Below, piece by piece: positions 1,606 through 19,656 of a stretch of DNA of 64,000 nt. Position numbers and translations under genes: made by a program. The notes under the pieces were generated by a model. The model did not search any database and was not told the origin of the DNA. It worked only from the letters and a program-made list of their open reading frames with translations. Source of the stretch: Lachnospiraceae bacterium JLR.KK008 (lineage in GTDB: Bacteria > Bacillota > Clostridia > Lachnospirales > Lachnospiraceae); the NCBI GenBank assembly GCA_037015955.1, contig CP143548.1, positions 3,032,001-3,096,000 on the forward strand, read 5' to 3'. The number at the start of each line of letters is the position of its first letter. Position 1 is the first letter of the stretch.

Positions 1606-3054
1606 TTATTCCCTCATTTCATCCATAATTTCCGCCAGTCCCGCTTCAAACTGTCGCATGGAAAAGCATCTTTCATATATGCCTCTTGCCCGCCTGCCTA
1701 TCTCCCGCAAGACGTCTCTGTGAGTCAGGCAGTATCTCAGCTTTTTCCGCAGTTCCTCCGCATTTTCTGTAGCAAAAATAAGTCCGTCTTTTCCATCTCT
1801 CATGTATTCGGCAATCCCCGCGCCGCTGCTCACAACCGTGGGCTTTCCGTACATCATTGCCTCTATTACCACCATTGATACCGTTTCCTGCCTTGACGCA
1901 CAGACCAGCACATCCGCTTCCTGAATCATTCGCAGCGTCTCTTCATGTGGCAGCGCTCCGAAAAACCGGACTGGCAGATGCAGCCTCTCACTGATCTCGC
2001 GCAGAGATGCGGCATATCGCGTATCTGCTTCTCCCACTAGCCAGAACTCGCAGACTGCTACTTCCTCACTTGTCAGATCACTGACCGCGTTCAACAGAAT
2101 ATCCTGTCCTTTCAGAGCACACACACCACCGATGAGCAGAAACGTGCAGCACCGCTTTTTCTCATTCCCGATCTCTCTGTCCGGCAGTCCGAACATCAGT
2201 CGTTTCACCGGAAACGAAGGGCATACTGCCCGGAATGCTCTCTCTGCCACTCCACTGACTGTGACGACCTTCAAATGTCCTGTTGGAATCGCACACACAC
2301 GCTCAGGAACTACGTTGTGGTACAGTGACTGCGGTTCGTGCAGCCACCAGATCACAGGAACAGACAAATTTCTCTCCAGCAACAGATAAAAAAGCTGCAC
2401 TGTATTGACAAAAAGCAGTCCGGCTCCCTGCGCCCACTCCATATCTTTCAGCCTGCCCATCCGCAGACGCTCATCAATTATGACGTCTGCCCCTGCTGCC
2501 AGAAAGCATTCTCTCATAGGGCCGTCTTCCGGTGCCCCTACGGTCAGACAGTAACCTTGTCGGACATATATCTCTGCCGCATACAGGAGACAGTTCGGTG
2601 CCCCGGTAACGGTCAGGTCATGCGAGATCATTACAATTCGCTCTCCCGCCATCCTTTCCTTCCCGTCAGTCCACTTCTCTGTACCGGTTTCACGCGCTCC
2701 CGCAATACTTTCCCGCACAGCTATTCTCTGTTCCCTCTCTCCCCGCTGCGCATGATAGACCCGCCAGGGGTCTGCTCTGTCCGCAGGAAGTTCAAACACA
2801 TAACGGATCTTCTCTTCCCCAATGCCCAGTTTCAACAACTGCTCTTTCATTTCCTTTGTATACAATAAGCTGCACAGATAAATCTGATCATACTCATAAT
2901 TGCCGATCTCACTGGGTGCAATAATGCGATGTCCATCCAGTTTCTTTCCCCATTTCACAGTATCATTGTCTACAAGGGCAACAATCTCTTCCCCCATGGT
3001 ATATTTTTTGTAGTGCAGATAATAGGTTCCGGTCCCAAATATCAGGATTTTCAT
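1606..3054 (-). CDS. GT4 glycosyltransferase with N-terminal Rossmann module
   Basis: 482-aa predicted retaining glycosyltransferase, last gene of the glycan operon. Residues ~1-90 form a Rossmann-like module ('ILIFGTGTYYLHY', 'VALVDND') like that in its operon neighbours. Residues ~135-480 are GT-B: an N-terminal 'TVTGAPNCLLYAAEIYVRQG' acceptor region, a 'IGGVCALKGQDIL' donor-domain start, and the EX7E motif in 'ETVSMVVIEAMMYGKP' followed by 'SSGAGIAEYMRDGKDGLIF', the nucleotide-sugar binding end typical of GT4. AAAGGAAG upstream supports the ATG at 3054. Donor and acceptor sugars cannot be read from sequence. Expected to add a sugar to the surface polymer or its lipid-linked precursor. Confidence 0.85.
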   Translation of the reverse strand: MKILIFGTGTYYLHYKKYTMGEEIVALVDNDTVKWGKKLDGHRIIAPSEIGNYEYDQIYLCSLLYTKEMKEQLLKLGIGEEKIRYVFELPADRADPWRVYHAQRGEREQRIAVRESIAGARETGTEKWTDGKERMAGERIVMISHDLTVTGAPNCLLYAAEIYVRQGYCLTVGAPEDGPMRECFLAAGADVIIDERLRMGRLKDMEWAQGAGLLFVNTVQLFYLLLERNLSVPVIWWLHEPQSLYHNVVPERVCAIPTGHLKVVTVSGVAERAFRAVCPSFPVKRLMFGLPDREIGNEKKRCCTFLLIGGVCALKGQDILLNAVSDLTSEEVAVCEFWLVGEADTRYAASLREISERLHLPVRFFGALPHEETLRMIQEADVLVCASRQETVSMVVIEAMMYGKPTVVSSGAGIAEYMRDGKDGLIFATENAEELRKKLRYCLTHRDVLREIGRRARGIYERCFSMRQFEAGLAEIMDEMRE

Positions 3055-3108
3055 AGACTTCCTTTCTATGGTCCCGTCCTGCCTGCTCCTGATCTGTCAG
3101 CGCAGTGC

Positions 3109-5423
3109 TTACTTCAATATTTTTGCCACGATCTGCCTCTCATATGTTTCATCAGGGATCGCATCCGGTGCATGATGCCAGGAAAGTTCCGCAACACCTT
3201 TTCCGGCAATGGGCACCCGGGTTTCTGCCTTGCACAGGGACCATTCATACTCGTTGTCAAGCTGACCTATGTCGACCGCCTGTATTCCATGACAAGTCAG
3301 ATCATAAGCCAACACAGTAGCTGTCGGTCCCAGACTGATCAGGGCAAGCATATCCTTAACTTTATGGGCAAGCGCACATTCCAGTATTCTATCATAACAG
3401 GCAAACGCATCCTGAGCCGGAGCAATGATACGTCTGACAGATTTTGTTCCTTCCAGTAGTCTGTTGCCAACCCCTGTCCTCGAATATTCCCCCTCGATAA
3501 GCAGTACATTGCGTCCTTTCCAGATGTCCTGAAATAATTTGAAAATCACATTGGCATGTTCTTTGTCCCGATAGATCAGATATGGCCTTGTGACATAAGC
3601 GTCATAAAAAGTCCGATTCGCCGGAATCAATCTGCCAACCTCCTCTCTTGTCTCCAAGTCTAAATACTGACGTATCTTATCGGCGGCATATTCCGTATAA
3701 ACTTCCAAAGAACCGAAAATGTCCGGTATGGCGAGCAGCACATTTTTTTCTTCCGAATGCAGGATCTCAAACAGCCTGTCACTCAGACATCTGTCCGGCT
3801 TTTGGAACCAGGGTCTTTCTTTTCCGCGTATCATCTCAAACTCCCCGTCTCCAAAACGGCACAGGGAGGCTTTCTCATGTTTCAGCCGTATTAATAATTC
3901 CTCCGCCGGAAGTACCGAAAAAGTCTGCTTTATATGATATTCATAGGGTGTATTGGCAAGACGCAGTTGATATTCTTCCAATAACAGGCGCTGCAGTAAC
4001 AATGTAACCCTGTTTTGTTCAAACACTTCCGCACCTCTGTCCTCTTCGTTCCAGAAAAAAAGCAATTTGTCTCTGCGGAGACCAACATTTGATGCAGTTT
4101 TTATAATATCACCGTAATTCTTTACGGACACGATGATCAGATCATAAACAAGCGGCTTCACCTCCTCCGGGCGGCAGACAGGCCATTCATTCATCCAAAG
4201 ACCGCCACTTTCAGAACCCATACTGTCTATCATTCCCCGTATCACAGCCTTTTCCTGATCGATACAGTTTATGACGTCGGCAGCATAAGCGCCGATTCCC
4301 CATACAAAAACCTTTTTCCTGACAGATTTCTTCCCAAGAACCAGACCATGTCGAAGCTGCGGCATGATCTCTTCCCCATAAGGAAAGAACATATACCCAT
4401 CAGAGAAAGAGACCGTAAAATGATGCCGCAGCAGATAATCAGATAAGGCTCTGCTTTGCCCCCCCCCCTATGGTATGTACAGGCTATCACCCGCAGATCC
4501 GTATTGTGATACAACATGTTTTCTCCGCCTTTTAGAGCCGCCATCTCGTCTCCTTCTATATCCATTTTCAGAAATGTGATCGGTGTTTGGGCATACTGAT
4601 TCAAAGTATCCAGCGTGATACATTCCCCGTCGTCTCTGTCCGACAACCTTCTCTCCACAATTTCCACTTTCTCTTTCCAATCTGCAAATGTATGCTGCAA
4701 TGCCTCGACCCACTCGGGATCGCTCTCAATCACATATATTTTCTTCGCCCGATCAATGCATTCCAGGGAGAAAAAGCCTTCCGCCGCACCGGCATCTGCC
4801 ACTACGTCTTTTTCCATTATGGCAAAACCCGGCTGACAGTAACAATGCGGCGAACATGCCGACTGCTCCCTGACAATCCCTGCAAGATAACTCACTGCCA
4901 TCTGTTCACTCATGCTTCGCTTGAAATATATTTTTTTTCCTTTCCAGCGAGAACAGACCAGTCCGTTCTCTTCCTCCCTCCAGACAGGGAATTCCGGGCA
5001 CTTCTCCGAATTGCCCTCTCCCGCGAAGTCAAAGAAAACATTCAGTTCATGGGATTCCAGATATTCCATCACAGACCTGATCTGCGGGTCCGCACTGTCA
5101 TGATACCGTTTCCTGATCTCCGCTTTGATTTTACTCAGGCAATACTGCCACGGCACAATATTGTCCTCCGGGATTTCTAATTGTTCCGTCAACTGTGCCC
5201 GGATCTGTTCATAAAAATGTTCCGGCAGGATCAAAACCGGAACTGCTTCCTCATAATGAGGCGCCCTGACTGCCACCTCACGGCCGCAGACAGAAACTAT
5301 ATTTCCCCACAGCCTTTTATCGTTGTCCCAAATCTCTGTCACGATAAATTCCTGCAGTTTATTCAAAATTGTCACAACTGTTTTCAGACGCCTGCCCGCG
5401 CCGAATAAAATAATCTTTTTCAT
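3109..5423 (-). CDS. FkbM methyltransferase fused to GT-D glycosyltransferase, out of frame at a G10 tract
   Basis: Two reading frames meet at the poly-G run (4459-4468). The upstream frame encodes a Rossmann module ('KIILFGAGRR', ~residues 1-100) and an FkbM-type O-methyltransferase ('DAGAAEGFFSLE' SAM loop, 'LKMDIEGDEMAALKG', 'VIACTYHR'). The downstream frame supplies the missing FkbM tail ('DYLLRHHFTVSFSDGYMFF'), then a second module ('VFVWGIGAYAADVI') and a GT-D (DUF1792) domain with 'CRFGDGEFEMIRG' and 'DIGQLDNEYEW', a family that transfers sugars onto glycans of surface proteins. With one more G the protein is 771 aa. As assembled, FkbM runs 60+ residues into a wrong tail ending at 4269. 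The ATG at 5423 is preferred; 5459 is possible. A GGGGAAGAG before an ATG at about 4362 could allow separate GT-D initiation. Confidence 0.8.
4459..4468 (-). repeat. Poly-G tract (G10 on coding strand) inside FkbM/GT-D gene
   Basis: Ten consecutive C on the plus strand, i.e. G10 on the coding strand. It lies exactly where the FkbM reading frame is lost: upstream 'ACTYHR', downstream in a different frame 'SRALSDYLLRHHF', which is the natural continuation of FkbM proteins. Tract lengths of 8 or 11 restore the frame. Long G runs of this kind are classical slipped-strand phase-variation sites in surface-glycan genes. Confidence 0.8.
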
Positions 5424-5460
5424 AGATACCAATCTCTTTTCTGATTGCATGATTCTCATA

Positions 5461-6572
5461 TTACATATGAGAAAATAGTAACTGTTCTTTTCTTAACCGC
5501 TCTTCCAAACATGGTTTTACTTCTAATGTATTTCTTACGCCAAGCGCTACGATAAGTCCGTCTGTCTCTTCACATACAAAATCATCCAAACGAATCTCCC
5601 CTTCCTCCCTGGGCTCCGAAACGACAAATCCGCTCAGCTCCCAGTTTTTCATCCGAAAATAATCCTCCAACCCTTTTCCATACTGGCCATGCCCGAAAAC
5701 ATATACTTTGCGATGCTCTTTTACAAATGCTGCTAACCCTGATGCACCCCACGGCCTCATACGCCCTTCCTGCTCCACCCGCTCCAGGTGTCGTAAGATC
5801 AGGTTATGATCATAATCGGTATGGTTTTCGATATAGTTTAATACGAGTCCTGCACTTTTACAATTAGCAGGCGTCATAGACCGATACTTTATAACAGGAA
5901 ATTTACTGTCGTTGATCATTTCATATGTGTAAACCATATAAGGGTTTCTTTTATTTTTTATGTACTGCCCGCCTCCATTTTCATCCAGATAAGAGGAAAA
6001 CCGAAATCCCTTACCGGAAAACCACACCGTAAACGCTATTTCGAACAGTTCGATCGCTTCCCGATATTTTTCAGGATAAACAAAACAGTTCCAGAACTCC
6101 TGCCAATAACGACTCATAAACATTCTTCTGTTTATAACAAGAAAGTAAGCCTGTATGTGCTCAGGCTCGTCCGAACCATCCTGCATAATCTTAGCCCCGC
6201 CGGCATTTCTGCTAAGTCCCCAGAAATCAAGCTCTTTTTCCTCCATCAACGAGAAAATTGTCTTCCATGGATACAGCGGTCCATAAAAGGTATCATTGCA
6301 CAGGACGATCTCATCCCACTGCCGCCAGTCTAGCTCTTTATATCGGTTGATTAGTACCTCCCTGTACCCCCCCCGTCGAATCCTATATTATCTCTGATAT
6401 AAATGTCTTCGCTGAACCTTCGCAGTACAGCCAGTCCATCGTCACAGATTTTGCCATTTACAACAATGATCAAGTCCGCCAACATCTGCTTCAGGCTGTC
6501 TAATAAGTAGACTTTGTATTCATCTATGATTCCTTTCGAATCATAGAATAAAAAGATGCCGATTCTTTTCAT
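5461..6572 (-). CDS. RgpF-like (rhamnan synthesis F) protein with C-terminal Rossmann module, out of frame at a G8 tract
   Basis: Two adjoining frames (6351-6572 and 5461-~6366) form one RgpF-family protein interrupted at the G8 run 6367-6374. The first frame gives 'IGIFLFYDSKGIIDEY', 'LIIVVNG' and 'IRDNIGFDGG'. The second continues 'YREVLINRY', 'DEIVLCNDTFYGPLYPW', 'DFWGLSRN' and 'HIQAYFLV', the diagnostic motifs of rhamnan/polysaccharide RgpF proteins. Nine G (or six) restores a 370-aa protein. After ~residue 285 a Rossmann-like module follows ('VYVFGHGQYGKGL', 'LIVALG'). The gene starts 6 bp after the methyltransferase gene, so translation is probably coupled. As assembled only a 73-aa stub is made from the normal start. 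Confidence 0.82.
6367..6374 (-). repeat. Poly-G tract (G8) inside RgpF-like gene
   Basis: Eight C on the plus strand (G8 on the coding strand) follow codons for 'NIGFD'. In the present register translation stops four codons later (TGRY-stop). With 9 or 6 G the frame continues into 'YREVLINRY', which is the expected family sequence. Confidence 0.8.
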
Positions 6573-6578
6573 CTATTT

Positions 6579-7498
6579 TTATTCCTTTCGTGGATATTTT
6601 GTTGCTCCGGTCACATCTTCCAGACAAATGTTTTTCCAGTCAAGATATTCTTCTTTTATCTGCATTGTTTTTTGCCCCAAAAATTCACTGTGACAATAGA
6701 GCCCGCCCACACACTGCCCCTGCAAATATCCACAGGCTTCTTCCGAAAACTCCGCTCCGGAAAGCAGATTGCTGCACCCTTTTTTCAGACACCTCATGCC
6801 AAACTTTTCCGGGAACAATACATGCAACGCATTTTCACTATACTGGAAAAAATGCCACGGCCTGTCGTGACTGCCGAACGCATAATGTGTCTCAATAAAC
6901 ACATAACCACCTGGTTTTAGTAATTTGATGATTTCCAATGCCGCCTGCCATGGCATAGCCAGATGTTCGAATACTGCACTGGAAAAAATCAGGTCAAACT
7001 GATGATCAAAATATTGACTTACCCTGTGAATATCTCCTACAATGTCAACGTTTTCTCCTTCATAATAGTCAAACCCTACATATCTCGCCTTAGAAAACAA
7101 GGAGCGAAAGTTGGCTCCTGTCACTACTCTGCTGCCAAGCTCCAGCACATCCATTCCCGGTTTGTCACAAAGCCTTTGCAAATATAAAGGCCATTTTTCA
7201 TGTGCAATCTCATCATCTGAAAGAACATCTTCCCGTTTCCATACTTCCACCGGTATCTCGTATTGATAAATGCCCTTTTGCTTCAGTATCTCTGCCATCT
7301 CGTTCGCATAAATCGAACAAAGCAAAATTTTTCTTCCCGCATAATCCCTTATATAGTCGTCCATCAAGATAAACGGTACTCCATCGGCAAATACCCCCCC
7401 CGGACAGAATCAATAACAGCCTCTACCCGATCACTACCAAGACGCTGAAATACCCGCTTTCCGATTTTTCCGCCACCAAACAATACTAATTTTTCCAT
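6579..7498 (-). CDS. SAM-dependent methyltransferase with N-terminal Rossmann module, out of frame at a G8 tract
   Basis: An ATG at 7498 opens a Rossmann-like module ('EKLVLFGGGKIGKRVFQRL', 'VEAVIDS') that runs into the G8 run at 7394-7401. As assembled, translation ends 14 codons later. The other frame continues 'VFADGVPFILMDDY', the expected rest of the module, and then a class I methyltransferase: 'DVLELGSRVVTG' SAM motif, 'YVGFDYYEGENVDIVGD', 'FDLIFSSAVFEHLAMPW' and 'LLKPGGYVFIET'. Nine G gives a continuous 306-aa protein. The domain resembles Methyltransf_11/Ubie-type enzymes; the substrate, probably a sugar or polyol in this locus, is unknown. The next gene follows after 6 bp. Confidence 0.8.
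7394..7401 (-). repeat. Poly-G tract (G8) inside methyltransferase gene
   Basis: Eight C on the plus strand (G8 coding) follow codons for 'VIDSV'. A length of 9 (or 6) joins the upstream 'MEKLVLFGGGKIG' frame to the downstream 'VFADGVPFILMDDY' frame. Confidence 0.8.
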
Positions 7499-7518
7499 AC
7501 TTTCCTTAGGCCTCATAA

Positions 7519-8664
7519 CTATAACCACTCCTCAATCCTCTTTTCCGTCTGTCCCCAGGACATGGCATGTTTCACACCTCTGTCCTGGTTACAGTACCGG
7601 CAGAAAGGAATCGGCCTTGCAAGACTCATCAAAATTTCTTCCGCCGAACCTGTCTGATAGATGTCAATAAAGTCTTGTTCGGACACTGTAAGATTTTTTT
7701 TGAAATAGTTGTTGAATTTATAAATTGCCGCCGGCCTTGTGCATGTATACAGCCTGCCATTTGACAGCTTGATACAATTATTTGCTTCAATACAACAGGC
7801 AAAGCTTTCTTCCGGTAGCTGATTACCGCTCAGATCCAACCCCATATTAGTCATAAACTTAAAGTCTTCGGAGGCGCCGAAGAATTCAAATGTAACGTTT
7901 TCTTCTATGGCTTTCTGCGATATTTTTTCATAATCGAGCACGATCGGATATTTTGTCACAATGATCGTAATTCTGTTGTCCCGACACACTCTCCAAAAGT
8001 CCTCATTACAACTTCCTAACAAAATGCCATTCGTAAAGACAGATATTTTTCCGACAGGAAACGCATTCCGCGCGATCTCCATGCACTCCGGCAGACGGGG
8101 ATGCAGCAGCGGTTCCCCGCCGATCAGATAAATACGTTCACATTCTCTGTCAAACAGCGTCCCTAATCTTTCAAAGTCACGCCGCATCTGATCGACATCA
8201 ATGAATTCCTCGTCCGCTATACAGGAAAACTGAGAACAGCACTTGCAGTTTAAATTGCAATGGGATGCTATGTCCACTTCAAACTGCAGTTTCTGTTTCG
8301 GTGTCAGTTTTTTCTTTCTCTGCTGTTCGTTCAGAAAAATTTCTGTTTCTTCCGTAACCGCCAAGATGATATTTTTTTCTTTAATTCCCAAAGCTATCAG
8401 TTGATCCCGCATCATATTCTCGTGAATCGAAGAAGTCAGCAGAAATATTCCGTCCTGATAACGCCTCGCCATTTCTTCCACCGGATAAACTTCATATTCT
8501 CCGTATCTGCCTTGTTTTTTATGCGAATTGTCACACAGAAATATGCTTTTCTCCGCAGCTTCTTTTCTGAGCATACGATACAGATAAAGCCCTGCATCTC
8601 CCCCTCCTGTTATGACAACAATGCTTTTCTCCTCTATTCTGCCAAGCAGCATTTTGTTATCCAT
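7519..8664 (-). CDS. Radical SAM protein with N-terminal Rossmann module (1 of 4)
   Basis: 381 aa. Residues ~13-110 form the Rossmann-like module ('IVVITGGGDAGLYLYRML', 'FLCDNS'). The radical SAM core starts at ~128 with the [4Fe-4S] motif CX3CX2C at C136, C140 and C143 (CNLNCKCC), then 'YLIGGEPLLHP' and 'ISVFTNGILL'. C-terminal cysteines (CCIEANNC, 'LYTCTRP', 'FCRYCNQDRG') suggest a SPASM-like auxiliary cluster region. 'GGEP' is the usual SAM-binding motif. GGGAGAG precedes the ATG at 8664. It sits between another radical SAM gene and the phase-variable methyltransferase. Reaction unknown; oxidation, epimerisation or C-C chemistry on a glycan or polyol precursor is an inference. Confidence 0.88.
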   Translation of the reverse strand: MDNKMLLGRIEEKSIVVITGGGDAGLYLYRMLRKEAAEKSIFLCDNSHKKQGRYGEYEVYPVEEMARRYQDGIFLLTSSIHENMMRDQLIALGIKEKNIILAVTEETEIFLNEQQRKKKLTPKQKLQFEVDIASHCNLNCKCCSQFSCIADEEFIDVDQMRRDFERLGTLFDRECERIYLIGGEPLLHPRLPECMEIARNAFPVGKISVFTNGILLGSCNEDFWRVCRDNRITIIVTKYPIVLDYEKISQKAIEENVTFEFFGASEDFKFMTNMGLDLSGNQLPEESFACCIEANNCIKLSNGRLYTCTRPAAIYKFNNYFKKNLTVSEQDFIDIYQTGSAEEILMSLARPIPFCRYCNQDRGVKHAMSWGQTEKRIEEWL

Positions 8665-8707
8665 CTAATCTCTCCCGTTTTTCCGTCTCCTGAGCCGTTC
8701 TTGCGTT

Positions 8708-9856
8708 CTAGCCTACGCTGAAAAAGTCACAATGTTGGCAATGCTTCCACTCTGACCGCCCTCTGTGCAGACATTCTCTGACCATACGAAACCGATCATT
8801 ATTCCATACATCCAATACAGAATCCTTTGACACATCTCCCAATGTATTTCTGCCAAGTGCATCATTGCAGCAAAGTGATACTTTCCCGTCCGGACGGATG
8901 ATCAACTGTCGGTAAGGAAGCACACACTTCGCCCCGGGATAAGACACCAGTCTCGCATTTGGCGCATCTCCACCTCTCGTCGTCAATACTTCATCCACTT
9001 TGCGCAATACGATTGTCACTTTCGACTTCAGCTGCGGATGTTCTTCACAGTAAGCCTTGATCTTCCGGCATGGCCCAATCAATTTTAACTCCTGATGATA
9101 ATTGTCGATGACCAGCTCATCCAGATATTCCATGATCTGTACAAATCGTTCAACTGTCAGTAATGTGCCATTTGTAAACAGGTGCATTCTTGCCCGCGGC
9201 AGCCTTTCCCTCGCATACTGATGAAACTTTATGATTCGTTCATCCAGAAAAGGCTCATTATTGGAGAAAAGCGCCAGTCTCCCACTGTAGGATAGTCTTT
9301 CAAGCTCGTTGATTATTTTATAAAATAGCTCTTCTTCCATCTTTTTGAATTCTCTGGTATCATTTTTAACACTGACCGGGCAAAAAGAGCAGCCACCGTT
9401 GCAGCGATTCACTGTCTCAATCTCCACATGGTCAAATAGATGATCGGTTCCATAAAGCTCATCGACCTGATTGTTGATGGCATTGATTTTATTTGTAACC
9501 GCAATACCTGAAGTGTCAATATAATCATTGTCTATACCTTCATCCATTTCATAGGGATTGACAATCAATTCATTGGTGGGGTAGTAGCACCATTTATCTG
9601 TTTTAAAGTTTGTATAATGATATATTCCCTGTCTGTTGAGTTGATTTTCCACCTCTTTTACATATTGTGTGGAAATGACGATCTCGAAATCTCTGTATAT
9701 TTCAAGGAATCGGGCAAAACTGATGATCTCGATCCCATCAATTCGATTACCGACCCGAGTCACATTGTTGTCCACAAAATAAGCGACATTTTCTCTTCCA
9801 TATTTAAGCAAAGCATATTTTCCGTATTTACCTGCTCCGAATAATATCTTTTTCAT
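8708..9856 (-). CDS. Radical SAM/SPASM protein with N-terminal Rossmann module (2 of 4)
   Basis: 382 aa. 'KKILFGAGKYGKYALL' with 'AYFVDNN' at residues 1-85 is the shared module. The radical SAM motif is at C152, C156 and C159 (CNGGCSFC), followed by 'ALFSNNEPFLDERI' (in place of the usual GGEP) and 'MHLFTNGTLL'. The C-terminal half has 'CVLPYRQLIIRPDGKVSLCCND', 'TLGDV' and 'HCQHCDF', a clear SPASM arrangement of cysteines for extra Fe-S clusters. SPASM enzymes act on peptides, sugars and cyclitols; the glycan-operon setting favours a sugar or polyol substrate, but this is inference. The gap to the upstream GT2 gene is 45 bp, in the same direction. Confidence 0.88.
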   Translation of the reverse strand: MKKILFGAGKYGKYALLKYGRENVAYFVDNNVTRVGNRIDGIEIISFARFLEIYRDFEIVISTQYVKEVENQLNRQGIYHYTNFKTDKWCYYPTNELIVNPYEMDEGIDNDYIDTSGIAVTNKINAINNQVDELYGTDHLFDHVEIETVNRCNGGCSFCPVSVKNDTREFKKMEEELFYKIINELERLSYSGRLALFSNNEPFLDERIIKFHQYARERLPRARMHLFTNGTLLTVERFVQIMEYLDELVIDNYHQELKLIGPCRKIKAYCEEHPQLKSKVTIVLRKVDEVLTTRGGDAPNARLVSYPGAKCVLPYRQLIIRPDGKVSLCCNDALGRNTLGDVSKDSVLDVWNNDRFRMVRECLHRGRSEWKHCQHCDFFSVG

Positions 9857-9901
9857 CTCAGCTTTTATCCCTTTTCCGATATATCATTTTGCTGTCAGAT
9901 G

Positions 9902-11107
9902 CTACCCTATCTCAAATCCTTCCGGAAACTTCACATTATTGATCGTTTCCGCATCAATAAGTACAATTTTCTCTTCCACAGCTCCTGCTCTAATCAAATC
10001 ATTTTTTATTTGCTCCGACAAATAAGTACGGATATTCGCAATGACTATATAATCATATTCAACTTTACAAATCTCATCTATACCGCTTATTTTATAATTA
10101 TCAATCATCCTCCCGCTATTTTTATCGATCCAGAGTACCATATTGTAATTCTCACATCCATTTTGCAGTACTTGAGCAATCTTCCTCCCCAGGTTCCCCA
10201 CACCATAAAGAATCACTCTGCTGCCGGGAATCACTTCTGGAAATGGAAATAAATAATTTTTCTCTCTCTTAAAAAATGCCTGATAATTTGCCCCCAGCAA
10301 ATGAAGCATGACTGTCTGATTTAACAGAAAATGAAGACGTCCCAATAAATCATGCTCTTCTAAAAGTTTATAATACTGCTGATACCACAGTTTTAACTCG
10401 TCGGTGTGAAAACAACAGACAATGGAATTATCTCTTTGGATATAATGATAACTGTTATCTGCCATACACGAAATTTTACTGCTCTCTAAAATACACGCTG
10501 TTATGCACAAAACGTCTTCACACATATTGATCCTGTTATCGATCTGTTTCTGTACTTTTTTATATAATTCCCGTCGAACCGCCCAGCACCACTGGGTAAA
10601 GGGTATCTTCTGTGTGTAGAAATGTTTACTGTCGAGCGCGTTTTCCAGAAATTCTCTGATTTTCTCTCTTCCCACATATACGGCTCTTTTTATATCGAGA
10701 AAGTTTACCGTTACATGATATGTCTCACCATACTCCCGAACAAATCCATCTATACAAACCATATCAGGCGAATTTTTCTTTATTTCATTGACCAGATTTT
10801 GTAATCGTTCTCTTTCTATCCAGTCGTCTCCATCCACATTTATAACATATTCCCCCGCAGCAGCCTCCGCTCCTGCCTTACGGGCGCTCACCAATCCGCC
10901 ATTTTCCTTATGGATAACATGAATTCTGGGATCTTTTTCAGCATAATCGTCACAAATTTGTGAGCATCCATCCGTCGAGCCGTCATCTACAAGTATAATC
11001 TCCAGGTTTTTGTAGCTCTGCTTGCATATACTTGCAATACATTTGTCTATGTACTCTTTTATATTGTAAATTGGTACGATTACACTCAATAATATATTAT
11101 CCCTCAT
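9902..11107 (-). CDS. GT2 glycosyltransferase with C-terminal Rossmann module
   Basis: 401 aa. The N-terminal ~230 residues are a GT-A fold family 2 transferase: 'SVIVPIYNIKEYIDKCIAS', 'EIILVDDGSTDGC' and the metal-binding DxD in 'VINVDGDDWIERE'. No membrane helices are obvious. After ~residue 290 the shared module appears at the C-terminus ('RVILYGVGNLGRKIAQVL', 'MVLWIDKNSG', 'YDYIVIAN'). Having the module at the end rather than the start shows it is a mobile building block within this operon. AGGAAA precedes the ATG at 11107. Donor sugar unknown. Confidence 0.88.
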   Translation of the reverse strand: MRDNILLSVIVPIYNIKEYIDKCIASICKQSYKNLEIILVDDGSTDGCSQICDDYAEKDPRIHVIHKENGGLVSARKAGAEAAAGEYVINVDGDDWIERERLQNLVNEIKKNSPDMVCIDGFVREYGETYHVTVNFLDIKRAVYVGREKIREFLENALDSKHFYTQKIPFTQWCWAVRRELYKKVQKQIDNRINMCEDVLCITACILESSKISCMADNSYHYIQRDNSIVCCFHTDELKLWYQQYYKLLEEHDLLGRLHFLLNQTVMLHLLGANYQAFFKREKNYLFPFPEVIPGSRVILYGVGNLGRKIAQVLQNGCENYNMVLWIDKNSGRMIDNYKISGIDEICKVEYDYIVIANIRTYLSEQIKNDLIRAGAVEEKIVLIDAETINNVKFPEGFEIG

Positions 11108-11139
11108 TATGATTTCCTACTGCCTCATTCCACTGTCAA

Positions 11140-12327
11140 CTATATCAATTTAGCGCAGGAACATTTCCGGCACAATATATCTCTGGAAAAGTCAGACAAC
11201 ATTCCTTCTTTGATCCGTTTCATTTCCTGCCCACGCATGATCTCTTCGTACGACTGTTCCCTCAAATTTCCCAATACATGTTTCATACCATAATCCATAC
11301 AGCATAAAAGCAACGTCCCATCCGGTAACAGTTCATTTTTATTCAACCCACTGCCGCACACACCACAGGAGATTTTTCCTTCTCCGATTGACTTACTGAC
11401 GAGTTCCTCACCTTCCAGATTTCCAGCCCGATCAAACAGAGAACTTGTAATCACATACTTTTTTCCACATATTTTCTCTGCCCTCTTGTCTGGCCGTGCC
11501 TGTGCATTACACATGCCGACGAATGGTCTTCCGTCGCTGCGTTTATGTTCTATTATAATCTCTAACAGTTTATAATACTCATCTGTCAATGGTATGTTTG
11601 CGTACTGCTTTTCGTCAGCTATATGTAAAGTAACGAATCCAATCGGCAGCTCCAGGACTTCTTTTAACATCTTTTCGTTTAATCCGACGAGTGTTGTATA
11701 CAGGTCGACCGTTTTACCCATTTCACAGACTTTTCTGATCATCGGCACACACTGCGGATTCAAAAATGGTTCCGCAAATCCGCCGAACTGGAACACCGCA
11801 TTTGAAGGCATATGTTCTATGCACCGGATTAATGTTTCCATAGTCATCAGACATGCTCTGTCTTTATTGTCTTTCAAATATTCCCGCAGAAATACATCCT
11901 GTGGGCAGTACTTACAATTTATACTACAGCCAATTTTCATTGTGATGTCGATACAGGGTGTCTCATCGTACCCACATCTTTCATCCTCGTTACCCATGAT
12001 CACACCGGAAGATATGATCTGTTCCTGTTTGATATGATGCGATACAAGATATGCTGTCACTTCTTTTGTGTTGTGCTGATTAAGAGCTAATATAAATATG
12101 CTGTCCTTAACCTGCCTGTCTGCTGCTATCTCTGCAAACTCATAGACAGGCAGATCGAAAAGACTGTGTTCACTTCTTATCGTAACAACAAAGCCATGAA
12201 CGAATATACCCTGTTGCTCTAATGCCTGGTAGATATTTCGTCCCCATATCCCTGTCCCATAAATATAAATTTTTTTCCCCTGTTTTATATACTTTTGAAT
12301 TTGTTCCATTCCCTGTGTCAATATCAT
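11140..12327 (-). CDS. Radical SAM protein with N-terminal Rossmann module (3 of 4)
   Basis: 395 aa from the ATG at 12327, chosen because GGAG lies 10 nt upstream; a GTG at 12333 is less well spaced. The module is at residues ~18-110 ('KIYIYGTGIWGRNIYQAL'). The [4Fe-4S] motif is C134, C138, C141 (CSINCKYC), followed by 'AVFQFGGFAEPFLNP' and 'VDLYTTLVGL'. C-terminal cysteines ('ISCGVCGSG', 'TLLLCCMDYG', 'CRKCSCAKL') form a SPASM-like cluster region with 'DGTLLLCC' and 'LGNLREQSYEEIMRG'. Spacing of module and iron-sulfur motif is very close to that of radical SAM proteins 1 and 4. Substrate unknown. Confidence 0.87.
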   Translation of the reverse strand: MILTQGMEQIQKYIKQGKKIYIYGTGIWGRNIYQALEQQGIFVHGFVVTIRSEHSLFDLPVYEFAEIAADRQVKDSIFILALNQHNTKEVTAYLVSHHIKQEQIISSGVIMGNEDERCGYDETPCIDITMKIGCSINCKYCPQDVFLREYLKDNKDRACLMTMETLIRCIEHMPSNAVFQFGGFAEPFLNPQCVPMIRKVCEMGKTVDLYTTLVGLNEKMLKEVLELPIGFVTLHIADEKQYANIPLTDEYYKLLEIIIEHKRSDGRPFVGMCNAQARPDKRAEKICGKKYVITSSLFDRAGNLEGEELVSKSIGEGKISCGVCGSGLNKNELLPDGTLLLCCMDYGMKHVLGNLREQSYEEIMRGQEMKRIKEGMLSDFSRDILCRKCSCAKLI

Positions 12328-12346
12328 GATCACTTGTCTCCAGTTC

Positions 12347-13489
12347 TTATGCCATGTCGTTGTTTATCTGTAATCCTGCCGGTATATAATTGGTATTATC
12401 TTTTCCACAGCCACCACATATTCTGCAAAAGCTGCTTGTCCCTCTGCTCAACTCTACCAGCTTATGGCACGCATATTTATCCTCCGGATCAATCTCCTCC
12501 AAAATAATATAGTCCTCCGGACAGAGCTTGTATCGTCCGCTTTTTTCAGCACTCCACGACACATTACAGTAATAAAATTTGCCATCATTGAGTCCATTCC
12601 ATTCCGGTCTGCAGCATGCCAAATGTTCCTTCAGTTCTATCTCATTACGTCTGAACGGCGACTCCGGAAATCCAAAGTCACACCATATAATAGAAGGTTT
12701 TCTATCATAGTGAATTCCATATTCTTTGAATCTGGCCTCCAGCAGATCCAGCCTCTCCTGATAAGGAATCTGATCGGAATAATCACTTACTACAATATGT
12801 GTTCCATATTTTTTCATAACTTCCAGGATTTCGTACGATGGCAGCACACTTCCATTTGAGGCATAAGAGATTGTTCCAAATTGACTTCCGTAATTTTCCT
12901 CCAGATAGACAATAACATCTTTCAGAACCGGATTTAACATCGGTTCTCCACCGATCAAACCAAAATAAACAACATAGTCGATTCGCGAAAAGAACTGATC
13001 GATATTTCGCTTTAATTGTTCCAATGTATAATGAAAATGTTTCTCATAATACGGAATGAACATATTGCAGCCCTGACAGTTGAATGTACATTTTGTTGTC
13101 ACTGTCATATCTACATGATAGACACAGTTCATACCTCTTGCATTCCAAAACCATTCACAGATGAATTGTCCGAGCCTGCAATAATCTTCAAATTCTGTCA
13201 ACCCTTGCCTGTCCAAAAATACAGAAATATCATTGTAAGCGGCATGGGCCGTCATGACTACAATCTTTTTACCAATTATTTTTTCCTTCGCTTCTGTATA
13301 TGAAATAATCGGAATGCCATTCCATTCTTTTCCCTGTTTATCCGTATCCTGATCGATGACACAAATAATATTAACATTTACTTTTTCAAACAGACCTTTA
13401 CATATTTTAGACACGGTACCTGCGCCATAGAGCACGATTTCATTGATTTCCTTCCAGTCTTCTGACAATCTTCCCAAATCACTCTGCAT
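12347..13489 (-). CDS. Radical SAM protein with N-terminal Rossmann module (4 of 4)
   Basis: 380 aa. The module is at ~16-105 ('EIVLYGAGTVSKICKGLF', 'CVIDQDTDKQG'). The radical SAM motif is C134, C138, C141 (CTFNCQGC), with 'VVYFGLIGGEPMLNPVL' and 'ISYASNGSVLPSYE'. The C-terminal part has 'LACCRPEWNGLNDGKFYYCNVSW', shortened here as CC...YYC, and 'FCRICGGCG', consistent with an auxiliary cluster. GGGAGATC precedes the ATG at 13489. It is the first of the radical SAM genes after the HAD-domain gene (11-bp gap). The 'LIGGEP' text is closest to protein 1, so the two may be paralogues or partners. Confidence 0.87.
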   Translation of the reverse strand: MQSDLGRLSEDWKEINEIVLYGAGTVSKICKGLFEKVNVNIICVIDQDTDKQGKEWNGIPIISYTEAKEKIIGKKIVVMTAHAAYNDISVFLDRQGLTEFEDYCRLGQFICEWFWNARGMNCVYHVDMTVTTKCTFNCQGCNMFIPYYEKHFHYTLEQLKRNIDQFFSRIDYVVYFGLIGGEPMLNPVLKDVIVYLEENYGSQFGTISYASNGSVLPSYEILEVMKKYGTHIVVSDYSDQIPYQERLDLLEARFKEYGIHYDRKPSIIWCDFGFPESPFRRNEIELKEHLACCRPEWNGLNDGKFYYCNVSWSAEKSGRYKLCPEDYIILEEIDPEDKYACHKLVELSRGTSSFCRICGGCGKDNTNYIPAGLQINNDMA

Positions 13490-13500
13490 TTCTGATCTCC

Positions 13501-15603
13501 CTAATAAAACAGCATCGATTCAATCCGGTTCATCATTCCGTTATCGTTATAAAAGCTTCTCTTTATGTCATCCGAAAATTCCATCGTTCCACTAAAGCAA
13601 AAGCCATAATACCAATCAACAAATTGTCTGTCCGGATTCAGTCCAAGCGTTCCAAACAGTCTGACATAATCGTAAATGAATTCTTTAATCCCCTCATTGA
13701 TTTCACGTTTATCGTCGAAATAATTTTGATTATTCTTTTTTTCCGCACAGACAAAATTGCCTTCAGCATCAACCGCCCTTACCATTCCGTAAGGCGCTGT
13801 CAAAACGCTTTCAATATAAATCATCCGCTTTAATATCTGACTGTTCTTTCCCGTTTTGTCATGCTCCTGCTGAAAACAGGCTTTCATCTCCGGCTTTTGC
13901 TCATCTCTTTCCTGCCTGGAAAGATCCGCATTAAAATAGTACCCTCGTATCCTCTTACCTGTTAATTGATTCAGATATTTTTGGTTATTGCCATAATACC
14001 CCAGGTCTACAACTGCACAATCATTGTCCAGATTCATTCTCTCTAAATAACACAGATAATTCTTTCTGATTTCACGGATATGATTCTGTATCTCAGTAAA
14101 ATGTATTTTTATCTGTTCCTCCAGAGATCGCCCTTCTGCTCTCGTTACGCCTTTTATGCCAAGCCTGTCCTCAAACAATTCTTCCATGCTTCCGGTATAT
14201 GGCATAGACATATAGTCCAGAAGTTCTTCCCCGGAAGTGACAGACGCCGACATGACAAGCTGCCTTGAAATTCCAAGGTAGCAATTTTCTCTTTTTTCTC
14301 CCAGAAGCTCACACAAAAATGTAAAATCTTCCTGCAAAAAGTATCCATCCCGTGACATAAATACCAGCTTTTTGATCTGATCCCGTTTGCTCTCCTGTAA
14401 CAGCCATAAAAGAAATGTCAAAATAACCGGTCCAAACACGGCATATCCCATTTCCTGATTGCTTTTGAGCACAGTCATTCCATCTCTGCGCAAAAGTGTA
14501 TACACATTTCTGAATAATTTCTGTCGAACACAACCTGCAATCGCTGCCGCATAATTACTGCAGACATTTGTTAAAAGACCATGCATGGAAGAGGCTGACA
14601 ATATTTCTCCGGAAGATGGCGCCAAATACGTATTTATTCCATACTTCCGTGGTATCTCTATATCTGCCTTTTGATGATCCCCAATATGTAAAGCGGCTCT
14701 CTCCTTTATAATCCGTTTGTTGTAGTAATCCCATAAAGAGCCATCTTTTTTAGAACAGTCTAATACGCAGGAAACCAGGATGTTTTCCTCTGGTAATTTA
14801 ATCTGGCAGCTATTCAACATTTCTGCAAAGAAGTGCAGCGGCAAATACATATCGCTGACCACATATACTGCTTTTTTCTTTCGAAGTGCATACTGCATCA
14901 CTTCCACACTCTCCGGACGCGGCACCAACAGTTTTTTCTCCACCTGCAATTCTTTTTTCTTAATGCTTTGGATCACCGGTCCGGGAAGCGCACTCAGTTT
15001 TTCTATTTCTTTGTATAGATCATCAAGCGAATACTGTTTTTTGAGCCTTTTTTTTGCTTCATTTCTTATTTCGATGAAATTGTTTGCACACTGCCACTCT
15101 TCTTGGATTTCTACCTCCAACAGGCGGAATATATCTTCAGGATCACAAACAGCACGCATAAACAAAGTATCAAAGAAATCAAACGATATAACCTGCGCCT
15201 GATCGATACGGTTGTATAAACTTTCAACAGAAAGATCATAAAAAGGATTCTCTGATCCGCACTTTAACCTCTTTTTTGCTCTTTTCCCGTTCTTATAATA
15301 AACAGGAATTTTTAAATCAGAGATACGATCATAAATGACATCCCAGTAAGTCTCCGATGTATTGATAATGACCAGATCGCCCATCTTTTCTGCCATAACC
15401 GGATCGATAACCGGCAGTCCAAAAAACGTTTTTCCGATATTTTCAGAACTTTTATCCATCAGGCCTGCAAAATGAAATCCTTTCACTCCTTCAACCAATG
15501 TCGCCGTATATCTGCCAATTCCATAAAGAATGATATTCTCATTCCTATATGACATAAAGTTGTTTGTAAAGTCGTCTATTTCATTTTGATATTTATGATC
15601 CAT
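13501..15603 (-). CDS. HAD-like polysaccharide-locus protein, three-part, with N-terminal Rossmann module
   Basis: 700 aa. Residues ~20-110 are the shared module ('IILYGIGRYTATLVEGV'). A HAD-like domain begins at ~135 with 'VISFDFFDTLFMR' and later 'VYVVSDMYLP' and 'LHIGDHQKADIEIPRKYG'. The usual second Asp (D+2) of phosphatase-type HADs is Phe here, as in the wider 'SFDxFDTLxxR' family of surface-glycan loci. A second large domain from ~380 contains 'KLVFMSRDGYFLQEDF' and 'CAVVDLGYYGNNQ', a conserved pairing with this HAD type. No membrane helices are seen. Role unknown; probably a transferase or phosphate-chemistry enzyme in glycan assembly. Long AT-rich gene with good coding character. Confidence 0.75.
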   Translation of the reverse strand: MDHKYQNEIDDFTNNFMSYRNENIILYGIGRYTATLVEGVKGFHFAGLMDKSSENIGKTFFGLPVIDPVMAEKMGDLVIINTSETYWDVIYDRISDLKIPVYYKNGKRAKKRLKCGSENPFYDLSVESLYNRIDQAQVISFDFFDTLFMRAVCDPEDIFRLLEVEIQEEWQCANNFIEIRNEAKKRLKKQYSLDDLYKEIEKLSALPGPVIQSIKKKELQVEKKLLVPRPESVEVMQYALRKKKAVYVVSDMYLPLHFFAEMLNSCQIKLPEENILVSCVLDCSKKDGSLWDYYNKRIIKERAALHIGDHQKADIEIPRKYGINTYLAPSSGEILSASSMHGLLTNVCSNYAAAIAGCVRQKLFRNVYTLLRRDGMTVLKSNQEMGYAVFGPVILTFLLWLLQESKRDQIKKLVFMSRDGYFLQEDFTFLCELLGEKRENCYLGISRQLVMSASVTSGEELLDYMSMPYTGSMEELFEDRLGIKGVTRAEGRSLEEQIKIHFTEIQNHIREIRKNYLCYLERMNLDNDCAVVDLGYYGNNQKYLNQLTGKRIRGYYFNADLSRQERDEQKPEMKACFQQEHDKTGKNSQILKRMIYIESVLTAPYGMVRAVDAEGNFVCAEKKNNQNYFDDKREINEGIKEFIYDYVRLFGTLGLNPDRQFVDWYYGFCFSGTMEFSDDIKRSFYNDNGMMNRIESMLFY

Positions 15604-15615
15604 TTGTGACCAGTT

Positions 15616-16800
15616 TCATCCTTTCATCCTGGCAATCAGGTCGCAGACCCGCGCTGCGGCTTTTCCGTCCTCTTTCATTCCGGTCTCTTCAAACAGTCTC
15701 TCCAGCCCCTGCTGGTAGTCCTCATCCTCAAAAGACGTTATCTTTTCCCAAAGGCCTGCCTCATCCTCTGCAAACGGAAATGGCAGTTTCCGAAGATCCC
15801 ACAGCAGCTTCCCCCGCTCTCCCGTATATTCCTGATAGTCATCTGCGTATAAAAATACCGGAATACGCATCACTGCCGCGTCAAAAGCTGCACTCGAATA
15901 ATCTGTCAAAAAAGCGTCGCATCCTGCCAGCACTTCATACAAGTCATCCACTCTGCTCACGTCCACAGCGCCCTCTCCGACCGCTCCTCCATCAAGATTT
16001 CTGGCTACAAGCTGGGGATGCAGACGCACAAAGACCGTCCAGCTCCCACCAAAACGCTCCGCCAAAACTGCCCGCAGTCTCCCATAGTCAGGAAATCTCT
16101 GCCCGGCTGCCACTTTGCGCTCCGTCCCCTGACTCCCGCCACGAAAAGTCGGTGCATACAGAATAACCCTTTCTTCCTGCGGTAAATGAAACTTCTTCCG
16201 CACTGCCTTTGCGGCCTTCCGTCTGCCATTCACAAGGATGTCACATCTGGGAGACCCGGTCCGCAGTACCGGACCTTCATAGATCATACCTCTTGGAAGG
16301 GTCGCATCGTACCAGTCAGAGTTTGAGAGCACATAGTCAATCATCTCCGAGTCATGCCGGCTCACCAGATAGGCAATCTTTGAAAAGGACGCACCACGAT
16401 CCAGGCACGTCGGCTTAAACCCCAGCTTCGCATGCCATGTCTGGATATAGACCTGCCCCCTGCGCTTTCTTGCCTCCAGCTGTTTCCTGCTGTTATCGAT
16501 CCAAAATCCTGCGGTCGTGAGGTGATATGCCCTCCTCCACAGACTGTTATGCACTGGCCTTATATAAGACGGAAACGATTTTGATCTGTCATTCACCAGC
16601 CAGATCAGTTCATATCCTCCTCGTCTGTGCAGCTCTTCCGCAATGTATTTGGGATTGCATGTATACCCGGTTGTCCCCTCGATACAGCAAAAAACTGCTT
16701 TCTTTCTTTTGATCGGAAATACCCGGCAGACATAGAATGCCAGGCTCTGAACCCGTGCCTTCCACAGCCGTTTTTTTATGTATCTCTCTTCCTGATTCAT
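15616..16800 (-). CDS. CDP-glycerol/ribitol glycerophosphotransferase family protein
   Basis: ~394 aa, TagB/TagF/TarL-type (PF04464) enzyme that moves polyol-phosphate from a CDP-polyol to a lipid-linked glycan or growing teichoic chain on the inner membrane face. Visible motifs: 'GTTGYTCNPKYIAEEL', 'IQTWHAKLGFKPT', 'TGSPRCDILVNG', 'RVILYAPTFRGG', 'FVRLHPQL' and 'CDAFLTDYSSAAFDAAV', which carry the conserved His and Asp-Ser residues of the family. The ATG at 16800 is preferred; a GTG at 16842 is in frame but has a stop codon directly before it. It fits the cytidylyltransferase two genes upstream, which would make the CDP-polyol. Confidence 0.87.
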   Translation of the reverse strand: MNQEERYIKKRLWKARVQSLAFYVCRVFPIKRKKAVFCCIEGTTGYTCNPKYIAEELHRRGGYELIWLVNDRSKSFPSYIRPVHNSLWRRAYHLTTAGFWIDNSRKQLEARKRRGQVYIQTWHAKLGFKPTCLDRGASFSKIAYLVSRHDSEMIDYVLSNSDWYDATLPRGMIYEGPVLRTGSPRCDILVNGRRKAAKAVRKKFHLPQEERVILYAPTFRGGSQGTERKVAAGQRFPDYGRLRAVLAERFGGSWTVFVRLHPQLVARNLDGGAVGEGAVDVSRVDDLYEVLAGCDAFLTDYSSAAFDAAVMRIPVFLYADDYQEYTGERGKLLWDLRKLPFPFAEDEAGLWEKITSFEDEDYQQGLERLFEETGMKEDGKAAARVCDLIARMKG

Positions 16801-16869
16801 GTTATTGCCAACCTGTCCCCTTCCTCTCCTCTTCCACCCCACTCCTCAGACGGCCGCTTGACACCTGCT

Positions 16870-16877
16870 CCCCCCCC
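16870..16877 (-). repeat. Poly-G tract (G8) in the leader of the glycerophosphotransferase gene
   Basis: Eight C on the plus strand, 70 nt before the ATG at 16800. The run lies within a small open frame starting at an ATG at 16882 (MAGGEQ...). With 8 G that frame ends in TAA two bases before the gene's ATG; with 9 G it would end in a TGA overlapping the ATG (ATGA). Its length could therefore alter translational coupling. The small ORF's own ribosome site is weak. Confidence 0.5.
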
Positions 16878-16916
16878 GCCATCTCTGTCCGTCATCAGCG
16901 CTCAAAATAGCAGGTT

Positions 16917-17969
16917 TCAACTATTTCTCTGCTGAAAAGATTCCAGCGTATAACGTAGTGCGTCCCTGATTCCTACCTGCGGCCGCCACCCCAGCATGCG
17001 GATCCGTTCGGTATCCATGACCCCCAGCAGAAACGGCAGATACTGCAGCCGCTCTTTTTCCTGTTCCTGATTGCCAGCCTCAGTCCTCACCTTAGTTCTG
17101 CCGCTCTCATCCAGTCCTGCAATTATCTCTGCCAGTTCCCGCACACTCACAAGGTTTTCAGTATTAGCGATATTGTAGTAATGCTCTCTGCCCTTAGTAA
17201 ATGCAAGCAGCATCGCTCCTGTCGCGTCCGCCACATAAGTATAAGTCCTTGTAGCCAGCCCGTCCGTCTGCAATACAATATCCTCTCCATGCAATGCATT
17301 CTCAAGGAATTCTGAAAAAGCCCTTCCGTCATCCAGAGTAATCCCCGGCCCGAATGTATGGCACAGCCGCACGCCAACATATGGGATCTGATACTGAGCT
17401 TCATAAGCTGCAAGCATCGCCTCACACAGTCTTTTGGCCTCCGGATAGCACATCCTCGCCTCGTTGCAGCCTGCCACGCCCATGTCACTTTCCCGAATAC
17501 CTTTTTCGTCCTTCCATTCCCCGTAAATCTCCACTGTGGACACATACAGTACTTTCTCGCTCTTTTTCGCTCTCGCCAGCTCCAATACATTATGCGTCCC
17601 CTGTACATGACTCCATAGCGTATCAACCGGATGATCCGTAAAGTCCCGCGGGCTGGCAGGCCCCGCCGTATGGAAAATATAGTGGACTTCTCCCTCCCAA
17701 CAAATCGGCTGCGTAATGTCCTGAATCAATGTATGAACATAGGGAAGCTGTAACGATTCTCCAAACACCTTCCGCATCTTCTCTTCATTCCTTGCCAGTG
17801 CCACGATCGTCGTATTCAGATTCCAGTCGATATTCGCCTTGCTGACTGCTTCCAGAAGATACATTCCCAGCCGCCCGCTCGCCCCCGTAATCAGCACTGT
17901 CTTATCCCGAAACTTTTCCCAGTCAATGGGGCTGTTCCCTATAATTTTCAGATCTCTTTCCTCTACCAT
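16917..17969 (-). CDS. NAD-dependent epimerase/dehydratase (extended SDR)
   Basis: 350 aa Rossmann enzyme of the extended SDR family. 'VLITGASGRLGMYLLEAV' near residue 25 is the NAD(P)-binding glycine motif, 'YIFHTAGPASPRDF' and 'VLYVSTVEIYGEW' are the conserved core with the catalytic Ser region, and 'YPEAKRLCEAML' holds the YxxxK dyad. 'GVRLCHTFGPGITLDDGR' and 'RTYTYVADATGAM' match nucleotide-sugar epimerases and decarboxylases. AGGAGAGAG precedes the ATG. It lies 9 bp after the TarI-type cytidylyltransferase, a pairing that suggests action on a CDP-activated intermediate, although a UDP- or dTDP-sugar is equally possible. Confidence 0.87.
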   Translation of the reverse strand: MVEERDLKIIGNSPIDWEKFRDKTVLITGASGRLGMYLLEAVSKANIDWNLNTTIVALARNEEKMRKVFGESLQLPYVHTLIQDITQPICWEGEVHYIFHTAGPASPRDFTDHPVDTLWSHVQGTHNVLELARAKKSEKVLYVSTVEIYGEWKDEKGIRESDMGVAGCNEARMCYPEAKRLCEAMLAAYEAQYQIPYVGVRLCHTFGPGITLDDGRAFSEFLENALHGEDIVLQTDGLATRTYTYVADATGAMLLAFTKGREHYYNIANTENLVSVRELAEIIAGLDESGRTKVRTEAGNQEQEKERLQYLPFLLGVMDTERIRMLGWRPQVGIRDALRYTLESFQQRNS

Positions 17970-17978
17970 GTCTCTCTC

Positions 17979-18904: not shown

Positions 18905-19504
18905 TTATTTCATTTTTAATTTCCTGCTCTTGTTATAAAATGTCGATAACGGCATTCCACAGCTCATGGATGCTTCTTTTGCGCTGATTTCTTTTAGTAT
19001 CCACCGCTGATACACAACAGGAAAATTTTCCGGCACCGGTTTTCTTGGCCTTCCGAATTTCACACCTCTCAGTCTGGCTGCTTCGATCCCTTCTCTCTGT
19101 CTCTGTTTGATATTCTTTCTCTCATTTTCTGCTACAAAGGACAATAATTGTAAAACAATATCACTTAAAAATGTACCGATCAAATCTTTTCCTCTTCTCG
19201 TATCAAGGAGCGGCATATCCAGTACGATGATGTCCGCTTTTTTGTCTTTTGTCAGAATACGCCATTGTTCCAGGATTTCTTCATAGTTTCTTCCCAGCCT
19301 GTCAATACTCTTGATATAAATCAGATCATCCTTTTTTAGCTTTTTTAACAGCTTTTTGTACATAGGCCGATTGAAATCTTTTCCCGACTGTTTATCCACA
19401 TAGATATTTTTTTCTTCGATTCCGATCTCTTCCATTGCTACGATTTGTCTGTCCTCATTTTGATCCTTTGAGCTTACACGCACATAACCATAAGAAACAC
19501 TCAT
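18905..19504 (-). CDS. Small serine recombinase (resolvase/invertase), candidate operon invertase
   Basis: 199 aa from the ATG at 19504, chosen for AAAGGAGAGAG directly upstream; an ATG at 19546 is in frame. The N-terminal catalytic domain has 'YGYVRVSSKDQNEDRQ' with the nucleophilic Ser, and 'IKSIDRLGRNYEEIL' with the conserved Arg of small serine recombinases. The long helix contains 'VAENERKNIKQRQREGIEAA', and the C-terminal helix-turn-helix follows 'GRPRKP' ('SAKEASMSCGMPLSTFYN'). Size and layout match Hin/Gin/Tn3-resolvase type enzymes, which act on short paired sites. The inverted repeats 33-186 bp from its 3' end are the natural substrates. It is intact, with no transposase or integron context. 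Confidence 0.9.
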   Translation of the reverse strand: MSVSYGYVRVSSKDQNEDRQIVAMEEIGIEEKNIYVDKQSGKDFNRPMYKKLLKKLKKDDLIYIKSIDRLGRNYEEILEQWRILTKDKKADIIVLDMPLLDTRRGKDLIGTFLSDIVLQLLSFVAENERKNIKQRQREGIEAARLRGVKFGRPRKPVPENFPVVYQRWILKEISAKEASMSCGMPLSTFYNKSRKLKMK

Positions 19505-19624: not shown

Positions 19625-19656
19625 CTATTTTACTGATATTATTATTTTTCAAATGA

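Follow-up and report, generated by a model that had tools for sequence, protein, structure and literature searches.

Accessory Rossmann domains have been known singly on a few glycan enzymes. The PF13727 domain of WbaP is stabilized by the uridine nucleotides UMP, UDP and UTP, and the full-length enzyme is inhibited by UMP with a half-maximal inhibitory concentration of about 4 uM; the authors of that work suggest that the shared domain puts phosphoglycosyl transferases and dehydratases under feedback control (PMC10942596). Here we analyse a window of 64,000 nucleotides from Lachnospiraceae bacterium JLR.KK008 (contig CP143548.1, positions 3,032,001 to 3,096,000), in which eleven consecutive minus-strand genes (1606-15603) each carry one copy of a short Rossmann-like module. 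In this one genome a single such domain has multiplied to about 43 copies, fused to either terminus of transferases, methyltransferases, radical SAM, LicD and HAD proteins.

Are the eleven segments homologous? A sequence-only reading of this DNA had proposed that one module recurs in eleven segments, on ten unrelated enzymes. Aligned with MAFFT, the window copies share both glycines of the Gly-x-Gly motif without exception. With hidden Markov models built by leaving one copy out at a time, ten of the eleven score 20-48 bits, and the weakest, that of the RgpF-type protein, reaches a marginal 12.1 bits; 2,000 shuffled sequences give at most 14 bits and other open reading frames (ORFs) of the window about 8. 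A stronger test is a profile trained solely on modules outside the locus and run on 1,708 ORFs. It recovers ten of the window copies with expectation values (E) from 2.7e-21 to 4.7e-6, and the interrupted methyltransferase copy at 2.6e-8 once its two pieces are joined with an X. These two kinds of profile rule out chance convergence of GxGxxG patterns, and on their evidence the eleven segments are one homologous module. The proposal of a single shared module holds, since a profile built outside the locus finds every segment; the segments align with one another in a profile, and the GT4 and GT2 glycosyltransferase copies show the same order of elements. The 'ten unrelated enzymes' need amendment: the enzyme classes are unrelated, but the carriers are eleven genes from about eight catalytic superfamilies, because four of them are radical SAM proteins in two groups.

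AlphaFold2 (AF2) predicts the GT4 copy to be a compact 90-residue Rossmann half-domain of the order b-a-b-b-a-b-a-b (predicted local distance difference test score 94.8). An AF2 model of the whole GT2 protein, computed from an alignment restricted to GT2 proteins, shows this element order again at its C-terminus (strand 297-301, helix 305-315, strand 322-327, helix 343-348, strand 353-356, helix 361-373). Mean column identity among copies is low, at 25%. Across 149 non-redundant copies the conserved positions are those of a cleft at the C-terminal ends of strands 1 and 2: an aromatic residue at the end of strand 1, before the first glycine (97%), the first glycine itself (97%), the second glycine (87%) and an aspartate directly after strand 2 (87%), with a small Ala, Thr or Ser after strand 4. 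In Rossmann folds, the positions most conserved in the module line the nucleotide crevice. Gly-x-Gly and the acid occur jointly in 113 of the 149; a subtype comprising RgpF, one radical SAM group (rSAM_b) and some GT2 proteins has the glycines, with V-S/T replacing D-N.

Solved structures point to the same fold. The module profile matches 3nkl (E 1e-12), Rex (1e-8) and 2g6t (3e-7) and, more weakly, VioB (2e-4), a mycarose C-methyltransferase (2.5e-3) and WbaP (7e-3). A Foldseek search with the GT4 copy puts 2g6t first, then Rex with NAD(H) and 3nkl, with VioB bound to a TDP-sugar lower. On the GT4 copy, the N-terminal domain of 2g6t, from Clostridium acetobutylicum, superposes with a template-modelling (TM) score of 0.86 and a root-mean-square deviation of 1.9 A over 92 columns at 32% identity. 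These relatives in fold and sequence bear out the earlier suggestion of a PglD_N/CoA-binding type Rossmann module, and the view that it has no catalytic partner of its own is likewise supported.

The module is not restricted to this operon; copies elsewhere in the genome and in relatives rule that out. A profile search of the host genome (3.19 Mb, one contig) gives 43 copies at E<=1e-4, and at E<=1 there are 46 matches. Almost all fall within four glycan regions, namely 446-460 kb, 2049-2070 kb, 2609-2644 kb and the present operon. A few isolated matches lie outside them; one of these, in a 231-residue ORF at 1813869, is a candidate for Rex itself. Within the genus, species range from 1 to 28 copies. 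The majority of the order's other genomes have 0 to 3, and these matches, frequently with E close to 1e-6, we read as Rex background. In a survey of 300 genomes of the phylum, whose copy counts are lower bounds, 37 match at 1e-9, and where several copies occur they lie mostly within 10-30 kb of each other. Relatives of the locus come from uncultured Lachnospiraceae, one Ruminococcus metagenome-assembled genome (MAG) and one Treponema MAG. A core of cytidylyltransferase, short-chain dehydrogenase/reductase (SDR), TagF-like, module-HAD and module-radical SAM genes (window 12347-18707) is kept in Lachnospiraceae and in the Treponema MAG (related loci L087, L088, L089 and L090), which suggests horizontal transfer.

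At least 14 catalytic families are fused to the module, which is N-terminal in 73 cases, C-terminal in 73 and internal in 9; with the module masked, the carriers form 20 BLAST groups plus singletons. The Pfam partners in this genome include glycosyltransferases (GT2, GT4, GT8, GT11, GT-D and WsaF-type GT), RgpF and LicD, enzymes of methylation and radical chemistry (TylF, FkbM, class I methyltransferase, Methyltransf_14, and radical SAM with and without SPASM), and MptE-like, HAD-like and, weakly, sulfatase-like domains, the MptE-like fusion lying at genome 2642052-2643359. Relatives add a pyruvyl transferase. Two sulfotransferase-like genes (2063402 and 2064276) have no Pfam match and are named by reading their sequences alone.

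Did the operon build its own set of modules? In a FastTree phylogeny of the module, made from short sequences over 95 columns and trusted for its gross pattern alone, partner class changes 31 times against a mean of 66 in shuffles, whereas locus changes 126 times against 133. Because partner changes fall far below the shuffles and locus changes lie near them, the copies appear to follow the partner enzyme and hardly the locus, the fusions being mostly inherited with the enzyme. The eleven operon copies are, on this tree, not sisters of one another, and their grouping with partner enzymes rules out recent duplication of one module within the operon as the main route. The same grouping speaks against a docking tag specific to the locus.

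The reading frame is broken in three of the eleven genes, those for FkbM, RgpF and the methyltransferase, each exactly at a run of ten, eight and eight G, respectively (Table 1). The alternative FkbM frame holds the FkbM C-terminus, by reading, and the TylF gene at 2069200 was re-assigned in the same way. Read in the other phase after the G10 tract, 3109-5459 would yield one module-FkbM-module-GT-D fusion. The GT-D module, described earlier as internal, does precede its GT-D domain, but it looks internal because the real C-terminal frame of FkbM reads stop-free into the GT-D ORF.

Long G runs are common in this genome: six G occur 99 times and seven 14 times, but eight or more occur 44 times (overlapping matches merged). 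Half of these long runs (22 of 44) fall within glycan regions that together make up about 3% of the genome, and poly-G clusters lie at 164-176, 424-437, 2058-2069 and 2622-2645 kb. About half of the 8-10 G tracts on the coding strand of glycan genes are out of frame, and in related genomes the tracts of module loci occur in both in-frame and out-of-frame states. The enrichment in glycan loci likely reflects phase variation; homopolymer sequencing error might account for any one case but would not produce such a surplus of long runs. Among 39 tracts examined, three are internal to the module within a single frame and a further two break it between frames, at least two of these intra-module tracts falling at the W-G / x-G-G site after strand 2. 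A G8 tract at 27318-27325, intergenic and just after a TATAAT, is a possible phase-variable promoter.

Table 1. Module copies, G tracts and neighbouring genes (window positions unless marked; E from the out-of-locus profile).
Feature	Position	Strand	E
GT4 glycosyltransferase (gene 1606-3054), N-terminal module	2794..3054	-	2.7e-21
GT-D ORF 3109-4392 (SP_1767 family-like GT), module precedes GT-D domain	4051..4317	-	8.5e-13
FkbM methyltransferase (ORF 4269-5459), N-terminal module	5148..5423	-	4.7e-6
RgpF-type protein (ORF 5461-6249), C-terminal module, V-S variant without Asp after strand 2	5467..5715	-	2.2e-6
Class I methyltransferase (ORF 6579-7367 plus upstream frame), N-terminal module, split by tract 7394-7401	7245..7498	-	2.6e-8 (X at shift)
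Radical SAM protein (7519-8664), N-terminal module	8359..8625	-	2.1e-10
Radical SAM/SPASM protein (8708-9856), N-terminal module	9599..9856	-	7.7e-17
GT2 (9902-11107), C-terminal module, fold kept in whole-protein AF2 model	9956..10222	-	4.5e-14
Radical SAM/SPASM protein (11140-12333), N-terminal module, V-T variant	12007..12276	-	4.3e-13
Radical SAM protein (12347-13489), N-terminal module	13175..13444	-	7.2e-15
HAD-like 700-residue protein (13501-15603), N-terminal module	15304..15540	-	6.8e-14
G10 tract (C10 on plus strand) putting FkbM out of frame	4459..4468	-	
G8 tract breaking RgpF frame	6367..6374	-	
G8 tract within methyltransferase's module, frame broken	7394..7401	-	
Poly-G tract (8-10) in glycan gene, coding strand	16870-16877		
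Tracts within module coding sequence	window 7394-7401; L102:6329-6336; L101:1676-1683; L108:3618-3629; genome 1307550-1307558		
Stand-alone module	genome 446535-447032; also related loci L091, L096, L097, L098, L100, L102		
TagF-like CDP-glycerol glycerophosphotransferase, no module, upstream core of operon	15616..16842	-	
SDR/epimerase, no module	16917-17969	-	
IspD-like cytidylyltransferase, no module	17979-18707	-	

What might such a module do? From the homology, predicted fold, fusion pattern and retained cleft described above, we infer ligand binding and its purpose as follows. The reading we prefer, and to which we give about even chances, is that the module is a nucleotide- or nucleotide-sugar-binding accessory domain like that of WbaP. 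It would be a single-nucleotide-binding Rossmann half-domain, plugged as an accessory into the enzymes of surface-glycan assembly. The ligand of each copy would be a nucleotide, either free or as part of a sugar donor common to the pathway, most likely UMP/UDP or CMP/CDP, and its binding would match the activity of the fused catalytic domain to pathway flux, in the manner reported for WbaP. In a close variant, a nucleotide-linked substrate would be held by the module. Where V-S/T replaces D-N, the copy would recognize a different ligand or no ligand. Nucleotide sensing is favoured because conservation in the module peaks at the nucleotide cleft and the profile relatives include the WbaP domain, with its reported uridine-nucleotide binding (PMC10942596).

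Several points count against this reading. No ligand was seen in any module copy here, and the relatives point to no single one, since they bind different ligands (NAD, UMP/UDP or a TDP-sugar). The sequence link to WbaP is weak (E 7e-3), and about 24% of copies, including RgpF and the majority of rSAM_b proteins, lack part of the cleft signature. Modules that stand alone, free of any enzyme, do not fit simple intramolecular regulation. The radical SAM, FkbM, HAD and sulfotransferase-like partners are not, to our knowledge, users of nucleotide sugars. A wider proposal is possible, though we hold it tentatively: the module, converted from a nucleotide-binding Rossmann domain, may be a universal adaptor for surface-glycan biosynthesis, tethering or sensing a single molecule common to its carriers (nucleotide, nucleotide-sugar or growing phosphopolyol chain), with enzymes of at least 14 families plugged in by fusion and switched by poly-G phase variation.

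An alternative that we consider unlikely is docking, in which modules would pair with each other, or with a membrane-anchored stand-alone module, and so assemble the enzymes at the membrane. Within a locus most enzymes do carry the module, at one terminus or the other; the related domain of WbaP supplies most of its dimer interface (PMC10942596), and that of EpsZ has been modelled in a hetero-complex (PMC12802240). Stand-alone module proteins of about 130-165 residues, without a catalytic domain and often with a hydrophobic N-terminus, are present in five genomes of the genus, yet they are missing from the present locus and from most multi-module genomes outside the genus, so that no stand-alone hub accompanies the modules everywhere. 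The strongest conservation, moreover, is in the nucleotide cleft. Of the docking, nucleotide-sensing or scaffolding device first suggested, nucleotide sensing is the part that we favour; docking as stated, with the enzymes assembled into one complex, fares badly, since copies cluster by partner enzyme and hardly by locus, and with three of eleven member genes out of frame an obligate complex is unlikely.

Could the cleft hold an acceptor instead? The Gly loop, as a phosphate-binding element, and the aspartate might hold a shared phosphopolyol or glycan acceptor, so that the module would resemble a carbohydrate-binding module for biosynthetic enzymes. Such tethering would account for the presence of one module on proteins as different as transferases, methyltransferases, LicD and sulfotransferase-like proteins. 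It suits the IspD/SDR/TagF core of the locus, and the window GT2 has the wall-teichoic-acid enzymes RmlT, TarS and TarP among its structural neighbours. We nevertheless find it rather improbable: we know of no relative of the fold that binds a glycan chain.

Sensing of redox state through NAD(H), as in Rex, has a low probability. Rex is among the best matches in sequence and fold, and an aspartate after strand 2 is the usual ligand of the NAD ribose; but the module stops after five strands, without a counterpart of the second half of Rex that completes the NAD site and the dimer, and the relatives on glycan enzymes bind UDP or TDP compounds. Least probable is an inert fold, a vestigial or solubility domain without ligand, which the low overall identity would allow but which does not square with cleft glycines and aspartate kept at 87-97% while the rest diverged.

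The pattern suggests that one shared signal or substrate controls or tethers a whole surface-sugar assembly line. If one ligand is bound, the module would offer a single handle on the coordination of, or the recruitment of enzymes to, an entire surface-glycan pathway, and it would serve as a sequence marker that flags uncharacterized enzymes as glycan enzymes. From the poly-G tracts in module genes, the glycome of this gut Firmicute may be phase-variable. Next to the operon lie genes for a protein with a serine recombinase N-terminal domain and for a PD-(D/E)XK transposase-like protein (18905-20673).

How does the module compare with described families? We judged novelty on Pfam, NCBIfam, PDB and open-access text, and in the last of these found no description of the module. 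The closest solved structure, 2g6t, belongs to PF22674 (C2185-like_N), an uncharacterized family with the same 90-residue fold, which the open-access text searched does not describe as a multi-enzyme module. Only one of the eleven window copies, that of GT4 (36.1 bits), exceeds the family's cut-off of 27 bits; GT2 (23.1) and GT-D (12.5) fall below it, and the other eight have no match at E<=1.

The PF13727 domain of WbaP and of CapD/PglF-type dehydratases (3nkl, 30us, 8t53) is likewise a Rossmann domain on surface-glycan enzymes, and 3nkl shares a related core with the module (TM 0.68, E 1e-12), although no window protein matches the PF13727 profile itself at E<=1. That domain is found on two unrelated enzyme classes, the module on many more enzyme types; PF13727 follows a four-helix membrane bundle, and its WbaP copy has a dimerizing hairpin, whereas the module is shorter and has no membrane bundle. 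PglD_N (PF17836) of the NeuD/PglB/VioB sugar acyltransferases matches the module in sequence and fold, VioB having been solved with a TDP-amino sugar. The best window copy, on the radical SAM protein 12347-13489, scores 22.0 bits, below the cut-off of 23.4, and one copy elsewhere in the genome scores 25.0. PglD_N, however, serves one enzyme class, and the carriers here have no acyltransferase domain. The Methyltransf_14 tail (PF08484) of sugar C-methyltransferases is represented by the genome copy at 2609011-2610249 (E 2e-19); unlike the module, this tail is tied to C-methyltransferases. The NAD(H)-binding domain of Rex has the same Gly-x-Gly and Asp Rossmann core, but it is a full NAD domain joined to a winged helix and acts on DNA; the Pfam matches of the window carriers, all enzymes, include no winged-helix family. 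Judged by profile and predicted fold, the module belongs with PF22674, PglD_N, PF13727, the Methyltransf_14 tail and the Rex NAD domain in one group.

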